Assembly (NCBI GenBank): GCA_003222935.1
Contig: QHXL01000325.1
Span: 6,674 to 24,888 of the forward strand
Source of the DNA: Acidobacteriota bacterium
Lineage (GTDB): Bacteria; Acidobacteriota; Blastocatellia; Pyrinomonadales; Pyrinomonadaceae
Length of the DNA: 18,215 nt
Direction: 5' to 3'
Below the pieces are notes generated by a model. That model did no database searches and was not told the origin of the DNA. It saw only the letters and a list, made by a program, of their open reading frames with translations. Of this stretch, positions 10,736 through 18,215 are shown piece after piece. Position numbers and translations under genes: made by a program. Position 1 is the stretch's first letter. Each line of letters begins with the position of its first letter.

Positions 10736-10870
10736 TGTCCGATATGCACTGATGGTCCGATAGGCTTTAGCTTGTCGCGACGTAACCTACCAGAACTCGA
10801 AGCTATAACGTTCTTAGGAAGTGCGAACAACAACTCATTAGCGTCACGACAAGCTAAAGCATATCGGACA
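10736..10870. repeat. REPIN-like palindromic element, copy 1 (with a partly duplicated left arm)
   Basis: The left arm (10755-10782) and right arm (10842-10869) are inverted copies matching at 26 of 28 positions. They start GTCCGATA, contain the GCTTTAGC core and enclose a 59-nt loop. The left side carries an extra partial arm at 10736-10747 (TGTCCGATATGC) separated by seven bases. The element fills the whole gap between two convergent genes, beginning one base after one stop codon and ending four bases before the other. It could act as a bidirectional transcription terminator. It shares arms, but not the loop, with copies at 11511 and 17580. Confidence 0.92.
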
Positions 10871-10874
10871 TGGG

Positions 10875-11498: not shown

Positions 11499-11510
11499 TA
11501 AACTAAAAAA

Positions 11511-11590
11511 TGTCCGATATGCTTTAGCTTGTCGTTGTGTTCATTACTAACCTTCTTCGAACATCACGACAAGCTGAAGCATATCGGACA
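11511..11590. repeat. REPIN-like palindromic element, copy 2 (compact form)
   Basis: The 25-base arms (11511-11535 and 11566-11590) are inverted copies with one mismatch, which a G-U pair would tolerate in RNA. They begin and end with TGTCCGATATG and its complement and enclose a 30-nt loop. No target-site duplication is evident in the flanks. This is the cleanest copy for defining the element ends. It lies 78 bases upstream of pta. Confidence 0.93.
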
Positions 11591-11668
11591 CTTCAGGACT
11601 TGTCCTCACCGGGCTTGTTCGTTAGACTGCGGTTCAACCCCAAATCAGATCGACAGTAAGTTTCTCCT

Positions 11669-15706: not shown

Positions 15707-16984
15707 TCACACTTCAACCTTGTAAAGATCGCGGCCGGCGTTCTCAACGATCAACGTATCAGGATCGTTACGAAATATTTCGAGATCGAAGGAACGATAA
15801 TCAAGGTAGCCGAGGTTTACTCGTTTGCAGGTCGCCTCGTCCAGACCCGAGGCCATGGTGATCCGGTAACGGGGAACGATTTGTCCATTCTCGTCATGAC
15901 GTCCAGCGTACGACACGTGGGCCAGGTGAGCGGCAATGCAGAGGTTCTCACGGAGTTCCTGCGACACACCTAACATGTCGCGCACACTCTCGAGTGGCGC
16001 GTAGCCGTACTTCTCGATCAGCGCTCCGTGCGTTTCCGATAATTTGGTGAGGCGAGGGGCATAGATGATCAGCTCACCGCCGTCGTCGATCACCGCCCCG
16101 AGTTTGTAACTTGCCTTTCCACCGACCCACATTTCATCGTAGTGCGGATCTAACACTGCTACGACGCGCTGGTATTTCCGTCCCGTGTAGCGAATGTGGA
16201 CCAGTCGACTGACCTCGGCGGCGCGGCGAAACGCTTCACGTACCTCACCTGCAAAAAGGCCATATGTAATCAGCCGACCTTCATCATTTCGCGAGACTAC
16301 CGTGTTCAATGAAATGATTTTTGCAGGAACAAAATCGGCAGCAGCTTCGATCATATGTCGTGTCGGTGTCTCCACCTGTCCGATGATGTTTTCGATGCCG
16401 GCGAGTGCGCCGAGCCAGTGAGTAGTGTGCGTCAGTTCAGGACCAGCAACACCAGGGAAGAAATACTTGGCGCCACCCGCAAAGCCTGCGACTTCGTGAG
16501 GCACTGTCGCGCCGAAAATGAGAACTCGATCATAAACACCTGGTGCGAGTAATTTGTTTAGGCTTACAGAGACCGGTTCACTGATGAGGCCACCGGTTAG
16601 TTCCCCGACTCGTTCACCACTTAACTCACCCAGTGTTATCAATTCATCAGGAATGTCCCAGCGATGATCGAAGAGCGATCCGGCAAAGTCATTGAGCCCG
16701 AGCTTAGAAAGCTTTTGCTCCTGGGACATCGGCGGGTGAGTGCCCTGGGCCACGAGTACGTCAAAACTTCTGACGTCGCGTTCGGTGAGTATTCGCGTGG
16801 CGACGGGAAAAAGTAGATCGGTATTATCGTCGCGCGTTCTATCAGGAACGATCGCGAGCACTCGCTCTCCGGGCGCAACAACTTCGAGAGCTTGTTCGAC
16901 GATCTTCGCCAAAGTCGTCGGGTCCAGTTCGCTCTCCGACGAACCTTCTCCGACGACGCCTGGTGTAAGTAGTTCAGTAGACAC
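15707..16984 (-). CDS. LarA-like nickel-dependent racemase family protein (DUF2088)
   Basis: This 425-residue protein has the LarA fold signatures: VPDRTRDDNT near residues 47-55 (compare DHTRPTP in lactate racemase), AQGTHPPMS near 79-87, VPHEVAGFAGGAKYFFPG (161-178) and HTTHWLG. H163, K173 and H189 have the same mutual spacing, 10 and 16 residues, as H174, K184 and H200 of Lactobacillus plantarum LarA, as I recall the numbering. There the Lys carries the nickel-pincer cofactor and H200 binds nickel. This argues for an active NPN-cofactor enzyme acting on an alpha-hydroxy acid. The substrate need not be lactate. The start is GTG at 16984 and no strong ribosome site is seen. It follows the OsmC gene by 27 bases, so the two probably form an operon. 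No larB/C/E genes are in the window. Confidence 0.8.
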   Translation of the reverse strand: MSTELLTPGVVGEGSSESELDPTTLAKIVEQALEVVAPGERVLAIVPDRTRDDNTDLLFPVATRILTERDVRSFDVLVAQGTHPPMSQEQKLSKLGLNDFAGSLFDHRWDIPDELITLGELSGERVGELTGGLISEPVSVSLNKLLAPGVYDRVLIFGATVPHEVAGFAGGAKYFFPGVAGPELTHTTHWLGALAGIENIIGQVETPTRHMIEAAADFVPAKIISLNTVVSRNDEGRLITYGLFAGEVREAFRRAAEVSRLVHIRYTGRKYQRVVAVLDPHYDEMWVGGKASYKLGAVIDDGGELIIYAPRLTKLSETHGALIEKYGYAPLESVRDMLGVSQELRENLCIAAHLAHVSYAGRHDENGQIVPRYRITMASGLDEATCKRVNLGYLDYRSFDLEIFRNDPDTLIVENAGRDLYKVEV

Positions 16985-17011: not shown

Positions 17012-17437
17012 TCAGCTTTCGAGAGTAGCGTTCATTGTGATCTCCGCTTTCAACAAACGAGAGATCGGACAACCCGCTTTAGCGTTTCCGGCGGCTGTTT
17101 GAAATGCCTCATCGGTTGCACCGGGAATTTTTGCTGAGACCTCAAGGTGAACAGTCGTAATCGTGAACCCAGCATCGGTCTTTTCGAGTGTTACTGCAGC
17201 TGAAGTGCTGATGCGTTCTGCGGTTAGACCCGCGTTTCCAAGCTGACCTGAAAGAGCCATCGAGAAACAGCCGGCATGAGCAGCAGCGATCAGCTCTTCA
17301 GGATTTGTCCCCTTCCCTTCTTCGAAACGCGTGCTGAATGAATACTGCGTATTTTCAAGTACACCGCTGTCAGTAGATATCGAACCCTTGCCGTCCTTAA
17401 GACCGCCTTCCCAGACTGCCGAAGCTTTCCGTTTCAT
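17012..17437 (-). CDS. osmC: OsmC/Ohr family peroxiredoxin
   Basis: 141 residues starting at ATG 17437, [19 protein letters not shown], which matches the usual OsmC N-terminus and length. The frame is open 13 codons further upstream, but AAAGGG (complement of 17444-17449) sits six bases before 17437. The catalytic residues are present: R37 ([14 protein letters not shown]), the Glu of PEEL, C57 in [10 protein letters not shown] and C123 in [10 protein letters not shown]. The enzyme reduces organic hydroperoxides in the cytoplasm with a Cys-based mechanism. It is followed by the LarA-like gene in the same direction. Confidence 0.92.
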
Positions 17438-17579
17438 TTGAATCCCTTTCAAGTTTTGATTTGTGCGCGACCTCATTGTCGCTGGACTATGCGGGATGTA
17501 GCAAGTACATGAGGCTTAAAACCTCTTACAAGAAGACAGGACCAGCGGAAAAGGAACTTCACTTCAGCGCAAGTTGAAA

Positions 17580-17901
17580 TGTCCGATATGCTTTAGCTTG
17601 TCGTGACTGCATTGCTGACGCGCGCAGGTGAAGTTTAAACCTTTAGCAATCTTGCTCACGACAAGCTAAAGAGCTTCTTGCAAAACTCTCATTCTCCCCG
17701 TGCTTCAGCTCGGGGTGCGGCGGAGCTCATGGAGTGAAGTAACCGTTTTCAACGGTTTGCTGCGGTGAGCCGCGCTCCACGTCTGTCAGCAAGAATGTCA
17801 AACCGAAGAAACGGTTCCCTCGATTTAAGCGCCACCTGTGCCCCGAGCTAAAGCACGGGGAGAATGAGAGTTTTGTAAGAGGCTCTAGAGCATATCGGAC
17901 A
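17580..17901. repeat. REPIN-like palindromic element, copy 3, interrupted in its right arm
   Basis: The left arm is 17580-17606, starting TGTCCGATATG and ending TGTCGTGA. The right arm begins at 17656-17671 (TCACGACAAGCTAAAG) and resumes at 17891-17901 (CATATCGGACA). Without the insert the arms pair perfectly and the rejoined arm equals that of copy 1. The loop is 49 nt and contains smaller inverted repeats (ATTGCT 17611-17616 / AGCAAT 17645-17650). Confidence 0.92.
17672..17884. mobile_element. MITE-like element with 44-bp terminal inverted repeats nested in REPIN copy 3
   Basis: The ends at 17672-17715 and 17841-17884 are inverted copies matching at 41 of 44 positions. They share the block CAAAACTCTCATTCTCCCCG and the core TGCTTTAGCT (left copy TGCTTCAGCT). 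Possible 6-bp target duplications are CTAAAG (17666-17671) and CTAGAG (17885-17890), differing by one base. The 125-bp interior is non-coding and contains small hairpins such as AACCGTT-ttc-AACGGTT. No transposase is encoded, so it would need one in trans. Confidence 0.85.
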
Positions 17902-17946
17902 TTCCAACTTGCGCTGGATGGCAATAGCGCTTAAACCTCAAAGCAA

Positions 17947-17998: not shown

Positions 17999-18215
17999 TT
18001 AGAGCGACACGGTCTGCTCGGCCCAGAATTGAAACTCGCGATGCTTATGGATTTCAGCTTTTGCCTGCAAGCCACTCGCAACGTCGCAAATTGTATCGAA
18101 CACTCTTTTCCCAACTTCATCAATCGTCTCAGTGCCATCTATCACTCCGCCTGCCGAGAGATCGAGATCTTGCGACATCCGCTCGAACACTGGTGAGTTC
18201 GAGGCAAGTTTTATT
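17999..18215 (-). CDS. UxaA-family (altronate/galactarate dehydratase-like) protein, C-terminal part (partial)
   Basis: The frame is open to the right edge and ends with TAA at 17999-18001, giving about 71 residues. It begins IKLASNSPVFERM, then DLDLSAGGVIDG, ETIDEVGKRVFDTICDVASG and ends near EFQFW. This matches the C-terminal domain of UxaA/GarD-type dehydratases (typically K-x-x-[ST]-N...M..D.D.NAG...G..T). These enzymes dehydrate sugar acids such as altronate or galactarate. The GTG at 18188-18190 is internal, not a start. Its proximity to a LarA-like racemase could indicate hydroxy-acid metabolism, though REPIN copy 3 separates them. Confidence 0.78.
   Translation of the reverse strand, partial: IKLASNSPVFERMSQDLDLSAGGVIDGTETIDEVGKRVFDTICDVASGLQAKAEIHKHREFQFWAEQTVSL

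Follow-up and report, generated by a model that had tools for sequence, protein, structure and literature searches.

The palindromes nested between osmC (17012-17476; PF02566) and an open frame on the minus strand (17999-18214) are best explained by a MITE of an insertion sequence (IS) that has a DDE transposase and inserts in REP loops. The MITE entered one arm of a REP-A REPIN with duplication of the loop, and the REPIN itself lies inside a probable decayed MITE; we give this reading a probability of about 0.85. The inner element would be a non-autonomous derivative of a DDE IS that inserts at the apical loops of REP hairpins. It would have entered the right REP-A arm at its loop CTTTAG, the duplicated part being TTTA if the element starts with G and CTTTAG if it starts with A. 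The host REPIN would in turn occupy an element with a similar tip, whose subterminal inverted repeat would be the 12-bp outer hairpin. The window, which is the whole stretch of 18,215 nucleotides that was analysed, spans positions 6674-24888 of contig C522 of the source genome (G000), a 5.19-Mb assembly of 695 contigs with a completeness of 88.6%. Each base of the nested structure was checked and agrees. Inverted repeats I1 (57 nt, 88%), I3 (32 nt, 94%) and I5 (29 nt, 100%) were found independently in the window, where the sole Rfam match is a tRNA. The minus strand of 17540-17940, folded with RNA parameters, reaches -215 kcal/mol (z = -15.2), and none of 100 shuffled sequences folds equally well. 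Next to osmC, at 15707-16984, lies a minus-strand gene whose product has the N-terminal domain of lactate racemases (Lar_N).

The left remnant of the presumed outermost element, a decayed S-type MITE, occupies 17520-17576 of the plus strand, with a tip-like AAACCTCTTACAAG at the outside followed by an S subterminal part that ends in CAGCGCAAGTTG. The right remnant (17905-17928, plus strand) consists of CAACTTGCGCTG and a short stretch outward of it, and its outer limit is uncertain. Inside them, the left REP-A arm of the REPIN (17577-17607, plus strand) is an intact hairpin with the apical loop CTTTAG at 17591-17596, and the REPIN loop (17608-17655, plus strand) separates it from the right arm, which lies on the minus strand and is split. 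The inner half of the right arm (17656-17671) ends with the first loop copy, CTAAAG (17666-17671; TAAA at 17667-17670 in the 4-bp reading), and the outer half (17885-17903) begins with the second, CTAGAG (17885-17890; TAGA at 17886-17889). The B-type MITE between the two halves is 213 bp long (17672-17884, or 17671-17885 when the tip is read as GAGCC...GGCTC); its inverted ends of 44 bp carry the tip AGCYTCTTRCAAAA together with a hairpin, termed REP-B, whose loop is CTTYAG. The three-level nesting of the original prediction is present in full: the outer arms of 12 bp, the REPIN within them, the insert of 213 bp and two hexamers of nearly the same sequence. The outer arms (17565-17576 and 17905-17916) are exact reverse complements, as had been stated. 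Removal of the insert was also said to restore the arm of an uninterrupted copy, and it does: once 17672-17884 and the hexamer 17885-17890 are omitted, 17656-17671 joined to 17891-17901 equals 10844-10870 of REPIN copy 1 at all bases. Because the two hexamers differ at one base, this perfect restoration requires that the first be kept.

Since a REP-A arm is interrupted by the MITE, and the outer element by the REPIN, the nesting implies the order outer element, REPIN, MITE. An alignment of the osmC intergenic region with related genomes, proposed as a check, yielded no orthologous empty site and no base-level answer, since the intergenic region of the nearest congener (G013) is short and unalignable there. 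The osmC gene is present in 13 of the 16 genomes of the genus, and the far side of the window is matched by tblastx in G013 only (1.5-kb flanks searched). In G013, the corresponding intergenic region (L180, about 1970-2060) has an inverted repeat of unrelated sequence, formed by TTTGTGCTTTGA with its complement.

REP-A reads TGTCCGATATG-CTTTAG-CTTGTCGTGAC and folds, with DNA parameters, into a weak hairpin; TTTA forms the apex, and pairing is interrupted by a single-base bulge and a single mismatch. The REP-A pattern TGTCCGATATGCTTTAGC has 287 matches in the source genome at up to two mismatches (149 forward and 138 reverse), and a pattern of 21 internal bases of the insert ends has 58 at up to three mismatches (29 in each direction). 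The reversed controls gave 0 in both cases, so both patterns occur more often than by chance. The structure at 17577-17903 has the make-up of a REPIN, being an inverted pair of REP hairpins that is dispersed; paired REPINs number 70 in the sequence fetched from the source genome and 13 in the fetched loci of relatives. Two uninterrupted REP-A REPINs lie in the window itself, copy 1 at 10755-10871 (inverted repeat I6) and copy 2 at 11508-11593 (I2). In the left flank of copy 1 (10736-10765), the outer REP-A half is partly duplicated (TGTCCGATATGC, then TCCGATAGGC).

The insert belongs to a family that is short, lacks a transposase, has terminal inverted repeats and is multicopy, as befits MITEs. 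Manual pairing of the B ends gave 27 two-ended copies, which measure 174-285 bp and in 20 cases 265-285 bp. The window copy, whose ends are 93% alike over 44 bp, is about 65 bp shorter inside than the copy of contig C629, which measures 277 bp between the same tips. At up to two mismatches, the B pattern is found in 12 of 119 genomes of the family, with 55 matches in the source genome, two in G012 and one in each of ten others. As expected from the original prediction, uninterrupted REP-A REPINs are common in the source genome and present in congeners, and the inner unit is dispersed, occurring at 26 further two-ended sites in the source genome. The REPIN thus exists without the insert and the insert without this REPIN, which supports the entry of the MITE into the REPIN. 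The description of the insert as MITE-like was right as to its class and is refined in two respects: the window copy is an internally deleted member of its family, and the landing was not random, REP-A loops being the usual site of the tip family.

Each B end forms a hairpin with a CTTYAG loop, REP-B, and the inner element might itself be a REPIN of two inverted REP-B hairpins moved by a Y1 transposase (RAYT) and not by a DDE enzyme. The 44-bp ends do contain CTCTCATTCTCCCCG-CTTYAG-CGGGG, and a Y1 gene on contig C476 is bracketed (L141, 499-529 and 1176-1206) by inverted copies of CTCTCATTC-CCCCGAC-CTTCAG-GTCGGGG, whose CTCTCATTC-CCCCG portion also occurs in the MITE ends. However, the C476 repeats are not accompanied by the outermost 14 bp of the tip, which are present in elements that lack REP-B and use the same target. 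Moreover, the loop is duplicated, which IS200/IS605-type transposases are not known to do. Given this tip distribution, the loop duplication and the existence of a DDE IS with the same tip, we consider such an origin improbable and have rejected it.

The tip (G)AGSCTCTTGCAAAA is common to at least four unrelated interiors, and its pattern CTTYAGAGSCTCTTGCAAAA has 128 matches at up to three mismatches in the source genome (control, 2). The fetched sequence holds 146 tips, two of which start contigs without a flank and were dropped. Among the remaining 144, an outer REP-A half adjoins 69, an inner half 48 and neither 27, so that 117 lie in REP-A (control, 0.9%), a figure that is biased at six bases because the tip search pattern included CTTYAG. 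The set of 58 B ends is independent of the flanks and free of this bias; 26 adjoin the outer half, 22 the inner half and 10 neither, which gives 48 of 58 in REP-A, the threshold being reached by 387 of 20,000 random 28-mers from the same fetched REP-rich sequence. Inspected by eye, five of the ten unscored B ends (C264, C334, C430, C482 and C686) resemble decayed halves and one (C42) is a doubled end whose outer copy lies in REP-A; a likeness to REP-A is absent by eye at C260, C335 and both C599 ends. Pairing of the tips gave 47 two-ended elements and left 50 tips single (23 at outer halves, 11 at inner halves, 16 at neither). By sequence, the 47 elements form clusters of 19, 13, 9 and 3 with three singletons. 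By their flanks, 32 lie between an outer and an inner half and one between two inner halves, while one side is unclassified in five and both sides in three. In the remaining 6, which count against the preferred reading, both flanks are outer halves; in one of these, C532, a flank looks doubtful.

In genome G007, four of the five pattern matches were examined and all four adjoin REP-A halves; there is one end per contig, each 125 bp from the contig end, as expected of collapsed multicopy elements. The six of 13 matches examined in G001 have flanks that end in CTTTAG (three), CTTCAG, CTCTAG and CTAAAG and are unlike REP-A outer halves. A tip with one mismatch in G013 (C100) has a flank that ends in CTAAAG and lies outside REP-A. 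In the source genome, the tips of C145 (L120) and C370 (L124) have CTCTCATTCTC in common with the B type and continue into another interior with ACCACCGGCTTTAGCCGCG hairpins, termed REP-C.

DNA folding places the insertion site, CTTYAG, in the apical loop of the REP hairpin. A comparison of its variable base between the two flanks was possible for 25 of the 32 outer/inner pairs: it is T/T in 17, C/C in 5 and T/C in 3 (one-sided Fisher p = 0.001), the three discordant pairs counting against a duplication. Target-site duplication is found across the family, with one mismatch at the window copy. The base that precedes AGSC is G at 132 of the 146 tips, a count that is partly built into the tip pattern, and the related elements of loci L285 and L290, whose repeats are of 4 bp, start with GAG. 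For these reasons, a tip GAGSC with duplication of the 4-bp tetraloop is preferred; a tip AGSC with duplication of the 6-bp CTTYAG suits this genus equally well.

REP-A halves flank most B copies, so REPIN and MITE might have spread together, as one composite unit, through the RAYT transposase of the REPIN. A Y1 transposase gene, split over two frames, does lie about 285 bp from a REP-A arm near the end of contig C165; it is one of 15 Y1_Tnp matches and the only one of 19 Y1 loci scanned in the source genome and its relatives that has a REP-A arm nearby. Yet among the 15 B copies with an outer and an inner flank, one end of the MITE points toward the outer half in 8 and the other end in 7, and the same site is taken by elements with other interiors. 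A partner REP-A arm is found within 330 nt at 23 of the 32 hosts (all MITE types), and when the 22 host REPIN loops of sufficient length were compared, two pairs were alike and the loop of the window REPIN matched none of the others. The two orientations and the mostly unrelated hosts indicate independent insertions and mostly refute spread of the composite, which we regard as very unlikely. Near another Y1 transposase gene (L138, contig C327 of the source genome), four CTTTAG-loop hairpins follow one another at 1215-1390 with a spacing of 52 to 54 nt.

An assembly artefact or a chance palindrome might also be suspected, given a fragmented assembly of 695 contigs and the repeats involved. This is hardly credible, since the window MITE is internally deleted relative to that of C629, the REPIN loop is unlike the others compared, and interrupted REP-A arms are also found at other loci and in G007.

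A candidate for the autonomous element is present in a congener, G012 (contig C827). This IS of 1,418-1,420 bp bears the MITE tip, has CTTTAG (or TTTA) on both sides and lies in an arm of REP-D, TTCAAG-CTTTAG-GTTG, whose pattern TTCAACCTTTAGCTTG has 130 matches at up to two mismatches in G012 (control, 6). The encoded protein of 367 amino acids contains DDE_Tnp_1 and DUF772 domains (PF01609, 57.5 bits; PF05598, 37.7 bits), DDE_Tnp_1 being the present name of Transposase_11. The best NCBIfam match, IS1182, scores 87 bits and does not reach its cut-off of 270, and the next, IS5_4, scores 62.6 against 140. Residues D149, D274 and E323 are invariant in 12 homologues and are presumably catalytic; a search of the PDB gave no sequence match at 0.001. 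On sequence grounds, the G012 IS is likely to be the autonomous partner of the MITEs, and a transposase of its type may have moved them in trans. It counts against this partnership that, by eye, only about the outer 14-19 bp of the ends are common to both. The REP-targeting IS that Tobes and Pareja class as type 1 are flanked by the two parts of a disrupted REP, an arrangement found in the one complete copy of G012 and in 32 of the 47 MITEs. A match to the transposase is absent from the source genome, a weak negative at 88.6% completeness and 695 contigs. Homologues of the transposase amount to at least 8,000 candidates. Two of the 119 family genomes match it at 1e-60, one of them partially, at a contig end with a flank other than REP-A. 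The ends were searched at eight of 11 transposase loci: the record of G012 itself, L285 and L290 have inverted ends with repeats, L286 has similar ends without repeats, and the other four gave nothing convincing.

These data bear on whether the hairpin or the duplex is recognized. TTTA or TTCA is apical in the folded DNA hairpins of REP-A, REP-B, REP-D and C476, and the extruded hairpin, not the duplex sequence, would be what the transposase acts on. That the duplex sequence of REP-A alone directs insertion, the hairpin being irrelevant, is nevertheless a serious possibility, to which we give somewhat less than even odds. The REP-A hairpin is weak, its two strands folding at -3.5 and -2.7 kcal/mol, values equalled by 1 and 12 of 200 shuffled sequences. 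Besides 119 intact REP-A loops, the fetched sequence holds about 60 REP-B loops with the same CTTYAG and 25 REP-C loops, none with a convincing insertion, so that the loop by itself is insufficient; a loose pattern of the REP-B half is met by a single tip (C134), whose flank is by eye a REP-A inner half. By contrast, the G012 IS lies in REP-D, the stem of which is unlike that of REP-A outside CTTTAG and the neighbouring bases, and the site is apical in both. With two REP classes of different stems hit in different genomes, recognition of structure and recognition of sequence both stand as readings.

The outermost level resembles the S-type elements. Positions 17522-17576 of the window match positions 3-57 of the S-type MITE of C389 at 82% over 55 nt (E 5e-12 in the set of 47 elements), and CAGCGCAAGTTG falls within the subterminal repeat of that MITE. 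On the right outer side, the S-type matches are short, with weak E values (0.012 at best; 0.11 for the match that reaches 17928). The outer hairpin is thus probably the subterminal repeat of an older, decayed S-type MITE with the same tip, in the centre of which the REPIN settled. The predicted order of hairpin, REPIN and MITE is upheld in its last step; that the hairpin preceded the REPIN is inferred from the nesting, and the hairpin is better read as this older MITE.

REPINs at hairpin apices are more frequent than chance would give: 7 of 83 have flanking stems that score at least 8, against 0.44 expected from mismatched flanks, and two of the seven (C320 and C78) involve, by eye, other REP-like copies. 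A general rule that hairpins precede REPINs was considered and rejected, as 54 of 57 REPINs have flanking stems of at most 6 bp. Longer inverted repeats with a REP-A REPIN at the apex were also noted at C320 (5864-6206), C103 (18924) and C599 (8912) of the source genome and at L102 (G007, contig C428); in one of these four cases, the REPIN is enclosed by the arms of another REP pair. In G007, the REPIN flanks of C419 mirror those of C518, and those of C412 mirror those of C652 (by eye); each pair of contigs may represent the two sides of one IS copy.

A wider scheme can be offered as speculation, and we hold it unlikely as a whole. The extruded REP hairpin would be recognized, the element joined at the loop and the 4-nt loop duplicated, as in the loop-only branch that Wan et al. 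proposed as possible for IS1272; with both hairpins of one REPIN extruded, bridging of their two loops would delete the REPIN core, which would explain the outer/outer elements (6 of 47 as scored). REPINs would settle on hairpin apices, including those of decayed MITEs, and the DDE and Y1 systems would alternately use the hairpins of each other, building nested palindromes.

Studies of REP repeats usually treat them as parasites or regulators; here they are where miniature elements with a variety of interiors usually land. The many natural filled sites beside intact ones provide material on whether a DDE transposase reads hairpin structure or sequence, and the locus illustrates the build-up of nested palindromes between genes. 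REPINs and their RAYTs are known as two inverted REP arms, with hundreds of arms per genome, and Y1 transposase genes. The present REPINs share the inverted arms and the hundreds of arms, in a genome that has Y1 genes, and differ in that they host insertions and sit at hairpin apices more often than expected by chance. Among the titles and abstracts searched, no IS or MITE of Pyrinomonadaceae that targets REPs was found. A set of MITEs with different interiors on one REP target, a loop duplication with matched variants and an alternating nesting were likewise not found in the literature searched, in so far as its texts were available, and the word MITE is absent from the text of PMC1525189.

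Insertion sequences that target REPs are already established. Tobes and Pareja (2006, PMC1525189) describe ISRm22 of Sinorhizobium meliloti, for which a Transposase_11 domain is listed: 10 of 10 copies are associated with REPs, insertion is at the axis of the palindrome, and the direct repeats measure 6 bp and are perfect in six of nine chromosomal copies. By that description, the resemblance to the present elements extends to the DDE_Tnp_1-type IS, the REP association and the repeats at the palindrome axis. ISRm22 is an autonomous IS; the present elements are for the most part MITEs, their interiors are of several unrelated kinds, and the REP families, the phylum and the nesting also set them apart. 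IS1397 and ISKpn1 of the IS3 family and IS621, ISPpu9 and ISPpu10 of the IS110 family, listed in the same source, likewise insert specifically in REPs, with transposases of families other than that of the present IS. In staphylococci, IS1272 (IS1182 family) takes the place of hairpins that are unrelated in sequence, and no duplication results (PMC5678879); the targets of three older copies are not inverted repeats. The model of Wan et al. has one branch, drawn as a possibility, in which the loop alone is duplicated, and one in which the stem-loop is replaced. IS1272 and the present elements are alike in taking inverted repeats as targets; the present ones differ in that their target hairpins have a common sequence and in that duplication of the loop is usual.
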